Notes under the pieces: model-generated | What the model was told of the DNA's origin: nothing | The model's database searches: none | What the model saw: the letters and a program-made list of their open reading frames with translations, nothing else | Shown here: piece after piece, positions 1,512-14,315 of the stretch | Numbering within the stretch: the first letter of the stretch is position 1 | How the letters are laid out: every line of letters begins with the position of its first letter | Position numbers and translations under genes: made by a program | NCBI GenBank assembly: GCA_001871075.1 | Contig: MNUP01000073.1 | Span: forward strand, 1 to 14,315 | Source: Candidatus Desantisbacteria bacterium CG1_02_49_89 | GTDB taxonomy: Bacteria > Desantisbacteria > UBA1551 | Direction of reading: 5' to 3' | DNA length: 14,315 nucleotides

Positions 1512-1536
1512 GGTCTTCGAAAAGGTTTGCCCTATC

Positions 1537-1582
1537 CGCCCCGATGGACATCGGGGCGAGACCTCGCCCCAAAGGGGCGGGC
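1537..1582. repeat. Double-hairpin palindrome directly after the first UroD-family gene
   Basis: The first hairpin is CGCCCCGATG (1537-1546) with CATCGGGGCG (1549-1558). The second is CGCCCC (1565-1570) with GGGGCG (1574-1579). A short AGACCT linker joins them. The same two-hairpin plan with nearly the same arms occurs twice inside queE (10594-10640 and 10722-10771), so this is a true family. It lies 15 bp past the stop codon of the gene at 1598-2611 and could stabilise its mRNA 3' end; no T-run follows. Confidence 0.75.
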
Positions 1583-3404: not shown

Positions 3405-3419
3405 TCAAACCTCTCAAGA

Positions 3420-3556
3420 TTAACCACAGAGACACAGAGGCACAGAGAACTACAAGTTTTTTTACAGGGAATTTATGAGAACTTAAAATGAATTCTTTTA
3501 GGTTCCCTGTGAAAAAAAGTTCTTCTCTGTGTCTCCGTGCCTCCGTGGTGAATTAT
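3420..3556. repeat. 137-bp inverted repeat (MITE-like) built on the CACAGAG repeat family
   Basis: The left arm (3420-3472) begins TTAACCACAGAGACACAGAG and ends with a T-run and ACAGGGAA. The right arm (3503-3556) is its imperfect inverse, carrying TTCCCTGT, an A-run, then CTCTGTGTCTCCG and CACCACGGAGG in inverse sense. The pair could fold into a long hairpin and occupies almost all the space between the dehydrogenase stop and the SDR start. There is no transposase inside. A further short copy of the arm lies at 5334-5355. Confidence 0.75.
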
Positions 3557-4593
3557 TACGGGTTTATGATTATTTTAAGGCCTTCTTTCTTTTTCATTGT
3601 TTCAAGCGCTTCGGGGAATTTTGAGAGCGGGAACCTGTGTGTGATCAGGGCCTTGGCGTTAATTTTGCCGGAAGCCAGCATGTCAAGGGCGAGTTTCTGG
3701 TGAATGGCGCGCGAATCGGAACTGCCGCACACCCGCAGCTCCCTGTAATGGAGCAGGTTGGTGTGCAGGGTTGCGTACGGGTTGTCTTTAGGTATGCTTG
3801 AAAAGAAACTTATCCTCGCGCCTTTCGCGGCCATTTGGATGCTCTGCGCCTGCGCCTGCGCGTCCGGTGCCGCCACAATAACCGCGTCCGCTCCCCTTCC
3901 TCCCGTCAGATCCATGACCTTTTTAACAGGGTCTTCTTCCTGGGAGCATATCGCGGCTTCAACGCCGAATTTCTTCGCGAATTCAAGCCTTGTCCTGGAA
4001 CGCTGCACAAGTATCACGCGTATTGCGCCTCTTGCCCTCGCGGTTTCAACATGCAGGTACCCGATGGGCCCTGCGCCTATCACGACGACCGTGTCCGCGG
4101 CGGTTATGCCGATTATCTCCTGCGCGTTTATAACGCACCCAAGCGGCTCTGAAAGAGAAGCCTCGTCGCTTGAAAGCCCGTCCGGAATCCTGAGGACGTT
4201 CCCCTGCGCTATCCCTAACGGCGGTATCAGCATGTATTCCGCGAAAGCCCCGTCTATGGCGGTGCCTACGGGAATCAAGTTCTCGCACATATTCTGCAGG
4301 CCCTCCAGGCATAGAATACACCTGCCGCAGGGAATGCTGGTAGCCATCGTGACCCTTTCACCGATGCTGAACCCGGCCGCGCCGGTTCCGATTTCCGTTA
4401 TCCTGCCGGCAAACTCGTGGCCCAGCACCAGCGGGGGCTTCATCCTGGGGTTGCCGTGCACGTAAGCCTTAAGGTCCGTCCCGCATATCGCACAGGACTC
4501 AACCCTGATAACGATACCGCCCGCAGCCGTGGCGGGCATCTCCGCTTCCTTTACCGAAATCCTGCCCACGCCATCGTAAACAGCCGCCTTCAT
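3556..4593 (-). CDS. Zinc-dependent medium-chain alcohol/polyol dehydrogenase
   Basis: 345 residues from ATG at 4593 (MKAAVYDGVG, the usual family start); an in-frame GTG at 4659 would add residues unlike the family. The ribosome site is weak (GGGG). Catalytic zinc ligands are Cys37 (CAICGTD), His59-Glu60 (GHE) and the Glu149 region (LSEPLGC). The four structural-zinc cysteines are at 89, 92, 95 and 103. The NAD(P)-binding loop GAGPIG is at 173-178. It oxidises an alcohol or polyol in the cytoplasm, in the manner of sorbitol/iditol or threonine dehydrogenase; the exact substrate is not visible. The SDR and UroD-family genes follow on the same strand. A strong terminator lies about 30 nt upstream, so this unit needs its own promoter, which I could not find. 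Confidence 0.9.
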   Translation of the reverse strand: MKAAVYDGVGRISVKEAEMPATAAGGIVIRVESCAICGTDLKAYVHGNPRMKPPLVLGHEFAGRITEIGTGAAGFSIGERVTMATSIPCGRCILCLEGLQNMCENLIPVGTAIDGAFAEYMLIPPLGIAQGNVLRIPDGLSSDEASLSEPLGCVINAQEIIGITAADTVVVIGAGPIGYLHVETARARGAIRVILVQRSRTRLEFAKKFGVEAAICSQEEDPVKKVMDLTGGRGADAVIVAAPDAQAQAQSIQMAAKGARISFFSSIPKDNPYATLHTNLLHYRELRVCGSSDSRAIHQKLALDMLASGKINAKALITHRFPLSKFPEALETMKKKEGLKIIINP

Positions 4594-9981: not shown

Positions 9982-10009
9982 ATTATAACAAATTTATCCT
10001 GTTTGTCAA
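9982..10009 (-). promoter_or_regulatory. Sigma-70 type promoter of the barrel-pilT operon
   Basis: On the minus strand TTGACA (10009-10004) and TATAAT (9987-9982) are perfect consensus hexamers, 16 bp apart. Transcription should start near 9975 and give a leader of about 37 nt with GGAGG before ATG 9938. The -35 box lies at the edge of a direct repeat copy (10007-10036), next to the CCCCGACA/TGTCGGGG hairpin. Confidence 0.8.
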
Positions 10010-10101
10010 GCCCCGACAGCTTTTGTCGGGGCGCAGACCCCCCTGTTTTATGCCGAAGGCATAGGAGGGGTCAAGCCCCAATGACTTTTGTCGGAGCGCC
10101 G
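10007..10101. repeat. Nested palindrome flanked by a ~30-bp direct repeat
   Basis: CCCCGACA (10011-10018) pairs with TGTCGGGG (10024-10031). GACCCC (10036-10041) pairs with GGGGTC (10067-10072) and encloses ATGCC/GGCAT (10050-10062). The segment 10007-10036 recurs imperfectly in direct orientation at 10071-10101 (shared TCAAGCCCC and CTTTTGTCGG). The block fills the gap between the queE stop and the barrel promoter. It could stabilise the queE transcript end, but has no T-run. Confidence 0.65.
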
Positions 10102-10105
10102 GGGG

Positions 10106-10993
10106 TCAGTTAATTCCCAGTATCTTGTGGAACTGGGGAATAATCCTGACGTCTTCCAGGCTGTGCCCGGCGATCCGCTGGAATTCAAACAGGTCCTTAT
10201 GGCGCTGCCCGGACGCGGGCTGGATAACCAGAGGGATCTTTCTGTCAACCCCGGCAACAAGAAGCGCTGCTTTTTCAATCTCCCGGGCGGTAGTCCTGCC
10301 TGTGACCACGACCTTCACGAAAACCCTGTTCCCTGCCGCGCGCAGGAACCTTCGGTGTTTTTCCCACAGGTCTCTTCTACCTGTCGCGCTGGGGAATTTT
10401 ATGTCCATTGCGACGAAATCCACGTTTTTTATTATCCCGCGCAAGGCGGCAGGCAGCGTTCCGTTTGTTTCCAGGTAGATCCTGAAACCCAGGCCCTTCA
10501 GGTCCGGGATCAGTTCTTTCAGGAAATCCGCCTGCAGAAGCGGCTCTCCCCCGGTCAGGGAAATTGAATGATAGTGAAAAGTTGAAGGTTGCCCGCCCCG
10601 ATTGATATCGGGGCGAGATCTCGCCCCCGAGTAAGGGGCGGAAAAGTTGAAAGTTAAATACTCCTTCAAAACCGCGACAATATCTTTTGATGATATTGGA
10701 TTTTTAAGTTTTAACCTTTCCCGCCCAATCAAAACGATTGGGCGAGGTCTCGCCCGCTGAAAAGACGGGCGGAGACTTTTGCAATCTGTAATCTGCAATT
10801 TATTTATACAATACTCCTGTCGCTTCCAGGAAAACCGGCTGTCGCAGTAATCACAGCGTCGAAGATTGCAGCCGGAGAAACGGATGAATATCTGCCTGAC
10901 GCCGGCGTATATCCCCTCGCCCTGTATGCTGTCAAATATCTCCGCCACCCACGCGCTTCGCATAGTGATTGTTTCATTAGTCCGATTGCCCAC
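10106..10993 (-). CDS. queE: 7-carboxy-7-deazaguanine synthase (QueE)-like radical SAM protein with in-frame repeat insertions
   Basis: 295 residues from GTG 10993 (7 nt after the upstream UroD gene); an internal ATG at 10963 (MRSAWVAEIF) is the alternative start, and neither has a clear ribosome site. QueE makes 7-carboxy-7-deazaguanine from 6-carboxytetrahydropterin, an early step of queuosine/7-deazaguanine synthesis. Family marks are SIQGEG (22-27), the SAM cluster motif GCNLRRCDYCDS (41-52), LTGGEPLLQ (146-154), VAMDIKFPS and the C-terminal PQFHKILG. The cluster motif is C-x4-C-x2-C, one residue longer than the usual C-x3-C-x2-C. About 97 residues separate CDYC from TGGEP, roughly twice the usual distance. 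The extra sequence is encoded by two palindromic repeat elements (residues about 59-97 and 113-141) flanking the helix ISSKDIVAVLKEY. The frame is open throughout; activity is uncertain. Confidence 0.8.
   Translation of the reverse strand: MGNRTNETITMRSAWVAEIFDSIQGEGIYAGVRQIFIRFSGCNLRRCDYCDSRFSWKRQEYCINKLQITDCKSLRPSFQRARPRPIVLIGRERLKLKNPISSKDIVAVLKEYLTFNFSAPYSGARSRPDINRGGQPSTFHYHSISLTGGEPLLQADFLKELIPDLKGLGFRIYLETNGTLPAALRGIIKNVDFVAMDIKFPSATGRRDLWEKHRRFLRAAGNRVFVKVVVTGRTTAREIEKAALLVAGVDRKIPLVIQPASGQRHKDLFEFQRIAGHSLEDVRIIPQFHKILGIN
10573..10659. repeat. Palindromic element B inside queE (heptamers, double hairpin, heptamers)
   Basis: Heptamers AGTGAAA, AGTTGAA, GGTTGCC (10573-10593) lead into hairpin CGCCCCGAT (10594-10602) / ATCGGGGCG (10607-10615). 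A second hairpin CGCCCC (from 10622) / GGGGCG (10635-10640) follows, then heptamer-like AAAGTTG, AAAGTTA (10644-10657). The hairpin arms match the intergenic copy at 1537-1582. It encodes queE residues of about 113-141 in frame, a stretch absent from ordinary QueE proteins. Confidence 0.8.
10701..10801. repeat. Palindromic element A inside queE (heptamers, double hairpin, heptamers)
   Basis: A run TTTTTAAGTTTTAACCTTT leads into hairpin CGCCCAATC (10722-10730) / GATTGGGCG (10736-10744). The second hairpin is GTCTCGCCCG (10747-10756) / CGGGCG-GAGAC (10766-10776, one-base bulge). Then come heptamer-like TTTGCAATCTGTAATCTGCA units, which read on the minus strand as ATTGCAG, ATTACAG, ATTGCAA. The plan is the same as in element B, but the arm bases differ in compensating pairs. 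It encodes queE residues of about 65-97. Confidence 0.8.
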
Positions 10994-12158: not shown

Positions 12159-14315
12159 TTATTTTAGTATCAGCAGAAGCGCGGCGAGGGAGAAAAAGAA
12201 GATCGCGGTTATTATCTTAACAGGTATTATATTTTTCTGCGAGAATTCAGCGAACTTCTTTGAGCCGACCCCGAAATACGCGAGCAGAAATACTATAATG
12301 AGGGGAATGATGAACATCAGGTTATAAAGAAAAAGATAGAAGTAAGCCTGCGCCGCGAGGGCCGGGTCCTTGGTCATAAAAGCAATGGTCGGTATGTATA
12401 TCTGTCCCGTGCACACGGCTTCAAGCAAAGAAACAAGCAGTCCCGTGAAAAACGCCCCGGCTATGATCAAAGGCGCGTTTATGTTTTTCCTTATCCAGAA
12501 ATGTATGCTTTCCTTGACTGCCCGGGGAAGCTGGAGCGCTATCCTGCTCGAATCGCCGGTTTTCTTGTAGATATACGCGTCATACAGGCTCATGCAGCCC
12601 AGGAATACGGCAACGGCAAAAATGGCGTAGAAGATAGCGGAAGAAACAACCTTGAACGCGGATATGCTTTGCAGGACCTTAAAAAGCCCCACGCCAAGCA
12701 TGTAATAAGCGGCAAAAACCCCTGCCGCGAAAAATATCCCGTTCAGCAGTATGTCCCGCTTGCTCCTGCCCGCGTAGGTCAGGAAAGAAATAAAAAATAT
12801 GATAGTCGCGAAAGCGCAGGGATTTATACCGTCGATAAGCCCAGCGGCTATCACGGCAAACGGGCCGAAAGACCTGAACCTGCGGGCTATCACGCTTTCA
12901 GTATTAGCGCCTGCGGCCTGAAAGGTTTCGGAAAGAGTCTTTTTAAGCGGCTGGGTCTTCTTGGCCTTAATCGCGGCAAGCTCTTCTTCGATCAATTTTT
13001 CGAGCTTTTTCTTTATCTCTATGCTGCCAAGCAGACACCTTCCGCCCACATAAGCTTCCATGGGCACGCTTTTCTTTATCCCGTATTTTTCTTCAAGGCC
13101 CACGAGCATCTCGTAATTTTCTTTTTTCGAAATATCGAATTCTTTTATTTCGACAGCACCGCCGTATTTGACCCTGATCCCCGGCAGCAACCCTCCCCTT
13201 ATTTCCTCGCACTGGCGGCATCCCGGCGAATAAAAATACATAACCTGCAACGCGCCTTTTTGCTGTTTGTTCGGAGTCACAAACTTTTGACTTTTACCTT
13301 TTACCTTTTGACTTTTGACTTGTATCTTCTCTTCGATTACAGGCCTTTTCACCCTTCCCGTTATCAGAATTGAACTCACCTGCTGGGTCGGGTCATTCGT
13401 CTCTATGTATAAGTTATAGATAAATGTTTCTCCGAGGACTTCTTCGGAAAAGAAAAACAACTTTATACCTGATTCCCCGAGCGGCTGAATACTGTCCGAG
13501 GCAGGAAGAGCGCTAATGCATTCGCAGGAAGCCCTTATTTTCCTTAAAACAAGTGTGTCTGACCCGATGTTGCGGACAGGTATCTCGCTTTCAACGGTCC
13601 TGCCCTTCTCTATCTCGCCCCAGTCCAGCTCATCCGGGACCATGATGAACGGGATCGCTCTTCCAAGCTTTGTTTCCGGGACGACCTTTAACGCGGCGGT
13701 TTCAGGTGCTGCCGTTGCTGCAAGTCTTTTTGCTTCCTGCAAAACATCGTATTCCGCCACAAGCGCGGCGGTCTGCGTGTCATCCGAAACTTTGTCGTTA
13801 AGCAGCGTCAGCTTGTAATCAGAAACCTTCAATATATAATCTTTTTTCTGGATATAGAGCTTGTATGTTGACTGGCCCGGGAACTGGACAAGGTTCGCTT
13901 TTGTCGCGATCTTATCCCTTGTAAGCGTGATCCTGCCCGCGTATTCGCCGTTTTTGCCTGCCTGGACGATAACTGCGTTCCCGGATTTAAGCGGTTTTTC
14001 CATCAGGGTCTGCGTGTGCCCGCCTACAATAATGTCTATTCCTTCCACCTCTTTGGCTAATTTTTCATCCCCTTCGTCTCCGAGATGAGAAAGCACGACA
14101 ACAATGTCTGCCTTACCTTTTGTGTCAGCAATGATCTTTTTCAAAACCGCTGCCGGGTCAAGGATCACAAGCCCTTCGATCTTTTCTTTGGGGAAGAAAA
14201 GGAACGCCCTGTCATTCACAACAGACGCTATCAGGATCTTAAATCCGCCTATATCCTTGATTATGTACGGCTTAGTAAATAATGGGGACTGTCCCGATTT
14301 TTGTAAGTCAAAATC
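12159..14315 (-). CDS. Metallophosphatase-DUF1573-thioredoxin-CcdA fusion protein, 5' end outside the window
   Basis: 718 codons are open from the window edge to TAA at 12159; GTG 14219 is only an internal codon, since homologous sequence (TKPYIIKDIGGFKILIASV) precedes it. Visible residues 1-190 are the rear of a 5'-nucleotidase/UshA-type metallophosphatase (VVLSHLGDEGDEKLA, IDIIVGGHTQT with metal His). Its usual C-terminal nucleotidase domain is missing. Residues about 226-324 are DUF1573 (DWGEIEKGRTVESEIPVRN, SCEC). Residues about 352-445 are a thioredoxin fold with CRQC (Cys366/369). Residues about 480-718 are a six-helix CcdA/DsbD domain with INPCAF (Cys500) and EAVCTGQIY (Cys635). The CcdA part would carry reductant from cytoplasmic thioredoxin to the fused periplasmic CxxC. 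Likely role: periplasmic disulfide reduction coupled to an exported hydrolase. Confidence 0.85.
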   Translation of the reverse strand, partial: DFDLQKSGQSPLFTKPYIIKDIGGFKILIASVVNDRAFLFFPKEKIEGLVILDPAAVLKKIIADTKGKADIVVVLSHLGDEGDEKLAKEVEGIDIIVGGHTQTLMEKPLKSGNAVIVQAGKNGEYAGRITLTRDKIATKANLVQFPGQSTYKLYIQKKDYILKVSDYKLTLLNDKVSDDTQTAALVAEYDVLQEAKRLAATAAPETAALKVVPETKLGRAIPFIMVPDELDWGEIEKGRTVESEIPVRNIGSDTLVLRKIRASCECISALPASDSIQPLGESGIKLFFFSEEVLGETFIYNLYIETNDPTQQVSSILITGRVKRPVIEEKIQVKSQKVKGKSQKFVTPNKQQKGALQVMYFYSPGCRQCEEIRGGLLPGIRVKYGGAVEIKEFDISKKENYEMLVGLEEKYGIKKSVPMEAYVGGRCLLGSIEIKKKLEKLIEEELAAIKAKKTQPLKKTLSETFQAAGANTESVIARRFRSFGPFAVIAAGLIDGINPCAFATIIFFISFLTYAGRSKRDILLNGIFFAAGVFAAYYMLGVGLFKVLQSISAFKVVSSAIFYAIFAVAVFLGCMSLYDAYIYKKTGDSSRIALQLPRAVKESIHFWIRKNINAPLIIAGAFFTGLLVSLLEAVCTGQIYIPTIAFMTKDPALAAQAYFYLFLYNLMFIIPLIIVFLLAYFGVGSKKFAEFSQKNIIPVKIITAIFFFSLAALLLILK
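13283..13324. repeat. Six tandem heptamers within the fusion gene
   Basis: On the plus strand six exact 7-bp units follow one another: ACTTTTG, ACTTTTA, CCTTTTA, CCTTTTG, ACTTTTG, ACTTGTA. The 42 bp keep the frame and encode a lysine/serine/glutamine-rich linker (VKSQKVKGKSQK) between the DUF1573 and thioredoxin domains. The units resemble the heptamers that flank palindromes at 1027-1054 and in queE. Confidence 0.8.

Follow-up and report, generated by a model that had tools for sequence, protein, structure and literature searches.

Paired-hairpin palindromes in a Desantisbacteria genome lie in frame within genes and in heptanucleotide tracts and resemble REP dimers

REP dimers have been described in frame within genes of O. 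terrae, Thioalkalivibrio, R. conorii and others, where they encode 20 to 30 residues; the cases include R. conorii dnaE and a double insertion in one gene, and the CGTC REP families are without a dedicated transposase (PMC3733652). Rickettsia palindromic elements (RPEs), which are stem-loops of 105 to 146 bp, also occur in frame in genes (Ogata 2000, reviewed in PMC2229807). Abundant heptamers are known from Beggiatoaceae, whose TAACTGA repeats are mainly intergenic and have one unit sequence (PMC4679880). Here we describe palindromes that combine features of these systems, starting from a stretch of 14,315 nucleotides from Candidatus Desantisbacteria bacterium CG1_02_49_89 (the window), which is contig 105 of a genome assembly of 2.48 Mb in 150 contigs.

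A sequence-only reading of the window had proposed that two double-hairpin elements flanked by heptamer tracts lie inside the queE frame and that a third copy is intergenic, near 1537-1582. Both queE copies were located, with the frame open through them, and the intergenic copy was delimited at 1535-1581. The features are as follows.

10106 to 10993, minus strand: queE, a 7-carboxy-7-deazaguanine synthase-like radical SAM protein of 295 aa from GTG, open through both elements
10592 to 10642, plus strand: copy A, a double-hairpin element of 51 nt, in frame in queE; the gene strand encodes SAPYSGARSRPDINRGG
10570 to 10591, plus strand: left 7-nt tract of copy A, ..AAAGTTG AAGGTTG
10643 to 10658, plus strand: right 7-nt tract of copy A, AAAGTTG AAAGTTA AA, in the register of the left tract
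10720 to 10773, plus strand: copy B, a double-hairpin element of 54 nt, in frame in queE; gene-strand reading LRPSFQRARPRPIVLIGRE (phase 1)
10706 to 10719, plus strand: left 7-nt tract of copy B, AAGTTTT AACCTTT, weak
10774 to 10802, plus strand: right 7-nt tract of copy B, GACTTTT GCAATCT GTAATCT GCAATTT
1535 to 1581, minus strand: copy C, 47 nt, intergenic, with a length not divisible by 3

The layout of copy A is C-CCGCCC..GGGCGAG-AT-CTCGCCC..GGGCGG-A, and copy C lies about 17 bp past the 3' end of an MtaA/UroD-like gene (1598-2611). As single-stranded DNA, copies A, B and C each folded as two separate hairpins, with z values of -4.6, -6.3 and -4.8 relative to dinucleotide shuffles, none of which folded as well (0/200). 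The flanking heptamer tracts proposed earlier were clear around copy A and weaker around copy B, and the earlier estimate of about 60 added residues is corrected to the 35 (17 + 18) that the two elements encode. Elsewhere in the window, two copies of another type of palindrome (GTCAAGCCCCGACA..TGTCGGGGCGC) lie shortly past the 3' end of queE (10005-10099), and an intergenic region (3407-3565) contains a facing pair of inverted CACAGAG-type heptamer tracts.

We then asked how widely the hairpins are dispersed. The 16-nt core GGGCGAG-RY-CTCGCCC had 79 exact matches in the genome, compared with 0 for a reversed-pattern control, and 133 when one mismatch was allowed. The exact GT core occurred 74 times in this genome compared with 0 to 1 times, the chance level, in each of 385 other sampled genomes. 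Neither the GT core nor the full pattern was found in the genome of one same-order relative, which belongs to another family. The census covered stretches around ∼120 copies (numbered with L below, as are other sequences used here; 0.5 Mb in all), and 82 well-delimited copies were the basis of the counts of ends, lengths and frames. The family thus defined has more than 100 copies in the genome, most of ∼45 to 57 nt, with the consensus C-CCGCCC-[stem X]-GGGCGAG-GT-CTCGCCC-[stem Y]-GGGCGG-A, an inverted dimer made of two units of one hairpin with a 2-nt spacer between them. Its ends are fixed: C precedes CCGCCC in 80/82 copies and A follows GGGCGG in 79/82. Single units are essentially absent, since all but one (L107) of the 12 apparently lone halves belonged to dimers whose core is a variant.

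The base of the stem, GCCC/GGGC, is constant, and the upper stems vary by compensatory pairs, with 48 distinct arm pairs seen. At stem position 5 of 160 half units, all four Watson-Crick pairs were present (C-G, 94; G-C, 24; A-T, 19; T-A, 14), and 94% of the half units were paired, compared with 42% expected if the arms were independent. This bears out the paired arm changes noticed in the window. This covariation could come from compensatory selection for folding or from template-switch correction of the palindrome, and the data do not distinguish between the two.

Several variants and larger arrangements were observed in the same stretches. A composite in which a CAGGGCTGAAGCCCTGAGTTAT hairpin is joined to the element and to AATTCCTTG is repeated ∼10 times, as if several palindromes moved or spread together (L108, L118, L119, L122, L130, L134, L139, L143, L156 and L157). 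Two tRNA-Ser genes are immediately preceded by copies whose hairpins are longer (L129:2473-2748 and L159:1164-1237), and a GAAGT-core subfamily, mostly of 52 nt, lies in 8-nt TTTCGTGC tracts (L081, L087, L095, L103 and others).

Can such elements reside in genes without interrupting them? Among the 82 delimited copies, 18 lay within open, gene-looking frames, so that there are at least 18 intragenic copies overall, one of which (L150) was assessed from its translation and coding score. Support from Pfam or PDB was available for about ten of the genes (dnaE, ddl, hisF, a leuC-like gene, lpd, thiL, a class-I fumarase gene, a B12-radical-SAM gene, a GH127 gene and queE, which holds two copies), with Pfam domains flanking or spanning the inserts. 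For several other intragenic copies the insertion falls at a signal peptide, and there the start of the gene is less firmly placed; Pfam gave no match for four long element-bearing ORFs. No intragenic copy contained an in-frame stop. Lengths were divisible by 3 in 18/18 intragenic copies (48, 51, 54 or 57 nt) compared with 20/64 others (Fisher, 6e-8), a result that is partly circular given that listing required an open ORF. In a small test independent of the ORF listing, a hexamer model chose the coding frame on each side of the element separately; for the eight elements with coding sequence on both sides, the same frame was chosen in 8/8 cases (chance, 1.5e-4) and in 7/8 with a 90-nt window. 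The GAAGT class, which is mostly 1 mod 3, contributed 0/31 copies to the intragenic set. Counting in-gene copies by reading frame, a check proposed with the original observation, thus favored coding compatibility. Five combinations of orientation and phase are in use, and phase 0 accounts for 12/17 mapped copies (P ∼0.002 against one third). The phase-0 copies begin with SAP or PAP and mostly end with GG.

These frame data bear on whether the inserts are translated at all. The hairpins might instead be excised from the transcript, or ribosomes might bypass them. Skipping reportedly has a precedent in Magnusiomyces mitochondria, in the 'byp' hairpins, and short GC-rich hairpins in conserved genes of a repeat-rich genome resemble byp in form. 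A skipped element, however, needs neither a length of 3n nor an open frame, yet all 18 intragenic copies have both, in contrast to the other copies, of which 44/64 have lengths that are not multiples of 3. We therefore regard nontranslation as extremely improbable.

Alignments with PDB sequences located extra residues at the elements. In Ddl, positions 120-149 stood against 135-145 (net ∼+19 residues); in HisF, 146-211 against 134-137 (net ∼+62); and in LeuC, 243-305 against 256-277 (net ∼+41). Fumarase had a net gain of ∼16 residues, and Lpd, DnaE and ThiL also had extra residues at the element. The extra length in HisF, LeuC and ThiL exceeds the element, part of it being tract or other repeat sequence. 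The Ddl insert is predicted to yield peptides such as SAPINIGARPRPAFAQGG.

We next considered where the elements insert. Degenerate 7-nt tandem tracts numbered 125 in 0.49 Mb of this genome, compared with 6 in 0.50 Mb of other genomes, although the 0.49-Mb sample was picked for holding elements and may overstate the density across the genome. Many elements lie inside such tracts with the register kept, and similarity across the element junction is highest at a 7-nt period (0.458, compared with 0.304 for random pairs). The flank consensus over distinct sites is ∼YYG|WAR, and, apart from the 7-nt repetition of the tract, the flanks contain no target duplication. A target duplication of 7 nt was itself rejected: it would make intragenic copies 2 mod 3, when 18/18 are 0 mod 3, and junction similarity (0.47) is about that within tracts (0.40 to 0.42). 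Intragenic elements are 0 mod 3 without any flanking sequence, so the inserted unit must be the segment from C to A itself.

Tracts also occur in genes by themselves. Long ORFs enclosed tracts in 24 tract-ORF pairs among the 125 tracts, and some of these pairs involve overlapping frames. Palindrome-free tracts lie in frame in conserved-looking genes (glutamate synthase-like, thiL, pyrK-like and integrase-like), with in-gene sites at L153:4120-4200, L091:4080 and 4314, L100:2778 and 2944, and L130:3872, and another is in frame in window ORF 12159-14315, at 13281-13308. The alignment of PurL (L155) with PDB sequences for a tract-only insertion fell in a highly variable region.

The residence of copies in tracts raises the possibility that the element is immobile, with slippage and template switching in unstable heptamer tracts producing hairpins in place that converge on one architecture. 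The paired arm changes are what template-switch correction of quasipalindromes predicts, and template switching may be the source of the covariation. Against an origin in place, the ends, the 16-nt core and the stem bases are common to unrelated sites, and one hairpin pair (TGCGCAAAGGCA / CGATATTRATCG) occurs in several different tract types. This recurrence argues that the elements reached those tracts independently and requires copying from site to site, which makes origin in place very improbable.

We examined queE more closely. Here 97 residues separate the FeS motif from GGEP. This interval is mostly 51 to 58 residues (range, 31 to 64) in 78 homologues, and a hand count gave 60 in the same-order relative, leaving a net excess of ∼37 to 46 residues here; the elements encode 35. 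The QueE homologues are without the inserts, so that neither result named at the outset as refuting the proposal was obtained: relatives with the same residues but no palindromic DNA, or no further hairpin copies in the genome. In an AlphaFold model, proposed earlier as a check of the fold, the core was intact and the inserts were modelled as disordered loops: pLDDT exceeded 90 for most of the core and fell below 50 at residues 81-90, 121-129 and 133-136, in the insert regions. The best structural match of the model was B. subtilis QueE. An ATG is present 10 codons downstream of the GTG.

Decay of a gene that is still open was raised at the outset for queE, and the host genes in general might be decaying, with the elements as harmless passengers in pseudogenes still open by chance. 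The QueE FeS motif lends this some weight: it reads CNLRRCDYC (CX4CX2C), with an extra Arg from an extra CGA codon (window 10838-10870), compared with CX3CX2C in 78/78 extracted homologues, and it also differs from the motif in the QueE alignment. Judged by this motif, QueE activity is in doubt. The other invariant QueE residues are retained, however, and an intact queC is present in the genome; the dnaE, ddl, hisF, lpd and leuC hosts have complete flanking domains, and the frame is preserved far above chance. Decay is therefore highly unlikely for the set as a whole, queE itself being less certain.

The queE gene of the same-order relative has no element between the FeS motif and GGEP but has a heptamer tract at the site of insert 1 (ATGAGCC ATGAGTC ATGTGTC ATGAGTA, encoding MSHESCVMSK). 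This element-free tract suggests that, at this site, the tract preceded the element. The relative's queE also carries a separate in-frame hairpin insert near the C terminus (CCCGCCGTGGCGGG, GGTCCCCAGGGAC), the first hairpin motif of which is rare in that genome (L033:1400-1432 for the tract and 1930-2000 for the insert).

Judging from sequence comparisons, we consider it very probable that the palindromes are a nonautonomous, REP-dimer-like (BIME/REPIN-like) mobile element that coding loops tolerate and that persists in genes only when frame-neutral; the intragenic copies all have lengths divisible by 3 and no in-frame stop. The original suggestion, that these palindromes form a family of their own which is compatible with coding and inserts into heptamer tracts, is thus supported by its dispersal, its 18 in-frame copies and the period-7 similarity at its junctions. 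The element would move via a single-stranded hairpin intermediate, cut by a hairpin-recognizing transposase, most likely of the RAYT/Y1 type, and would be joined without target duplication. Selection would then filter the insertions in genes, such that frame-neutral copies in structurally tolerant loops remain and are translated as extra, mostly disordered residues. The genome has 10 Y1_Tnp matches; judged by size or fragment, nine of these (L068-L076) are RAYT-like. No element lies within 1.5 kb of any of the 10 Y1 genes; an autonomous partner was thus not found in these neighborhoods, and a link to a neighboring RAYT was rejected. A RAYT acting in trans is plausible.

It is also possible, though we hold this only tentatively and think it somewhat unlikely, that proteins are lengthened in two layers, with diverse heptamer tracts entering coding loops in frame and also receiving a dedicated hairpin element that has been shaped, in its length, ends and reading phase, to suit translation. 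Heptamer tracts as landing sites, often in genes, would offer a testable account of how selfish DNA makes proteins longer. For the element itself, the preservation of frame gives the exact insertion unit (C to A, with no target duplication) without an empty-site comparison, and knowing this unit limits the kind of enzyme that should be sought. A selfish repeat would here be written into proteins as extra loops, in hosts that include a replicative polymerase, a cell wall ligase and central metabolism, some of them normally essential (dnaE). Coding palindromes thus extend beyond reduced intracellular genomes to a 2.5-Mb genome of a poorly sampled lineage.

How does this family compare with known systems? 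Cyanobacterial STRRs are reportedly heptanucleotide repeats, and the present genome shares with them and with the TAACTGA repeats an abundance of 7-nt tandem tracts. Unlike the TAACTGA repeats, the tracts here have many degenerate unit sequences, are often in genes and carry palindromes. A MITE with terminal inverted repeats differs in its target site duplication, which is absent here. Like RPEs, the family inserts in frame into a wide range of unrelated conserved genes, which tolerate the added residues, but the double hairpins here are 45 to 57 nt long, apparently unrelated in sequence and found in a 2.5-Mb genome; the described length is what sets the two apart. The earlier comparison with Rickettsia therefore holds as an analogy and not as membership.

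Like GTAG and CGTC REPs and BIMEs, the elements are dispersed short hairpins in many copies, with inverted dimers and stem variants that preserve pairing, and they share with these REPs in-frame dimers, two insertions in one gene and a dnaE case. They differ in having no GTAG or CGTC tag at the unit ends (the outer ends are C and A and the inner junction is GAG-GT-CTC), a fixed 2-nt spacer, essentially no single units and sites in 7-nt tracts, and the repeat-flanked RAYT of GTAG REPs was not found here. A REPIN replicates as an inverted doublet of REPs and is mobilized by a RAYT; in the present family, virtually all halves likewise occur in dimers. By the tests made, the element belongs to neither the GTAG nor the CGTC families nor, by length, to RPEs. 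In the open-access literature, we found no published description of this family nor of its combination of features, obligate hairpin dimers with new ends that land in heptamer tracts within genes. The nearest prior art is the broader work on REPs (PMC3733652) rather than the Rickettsia elements.
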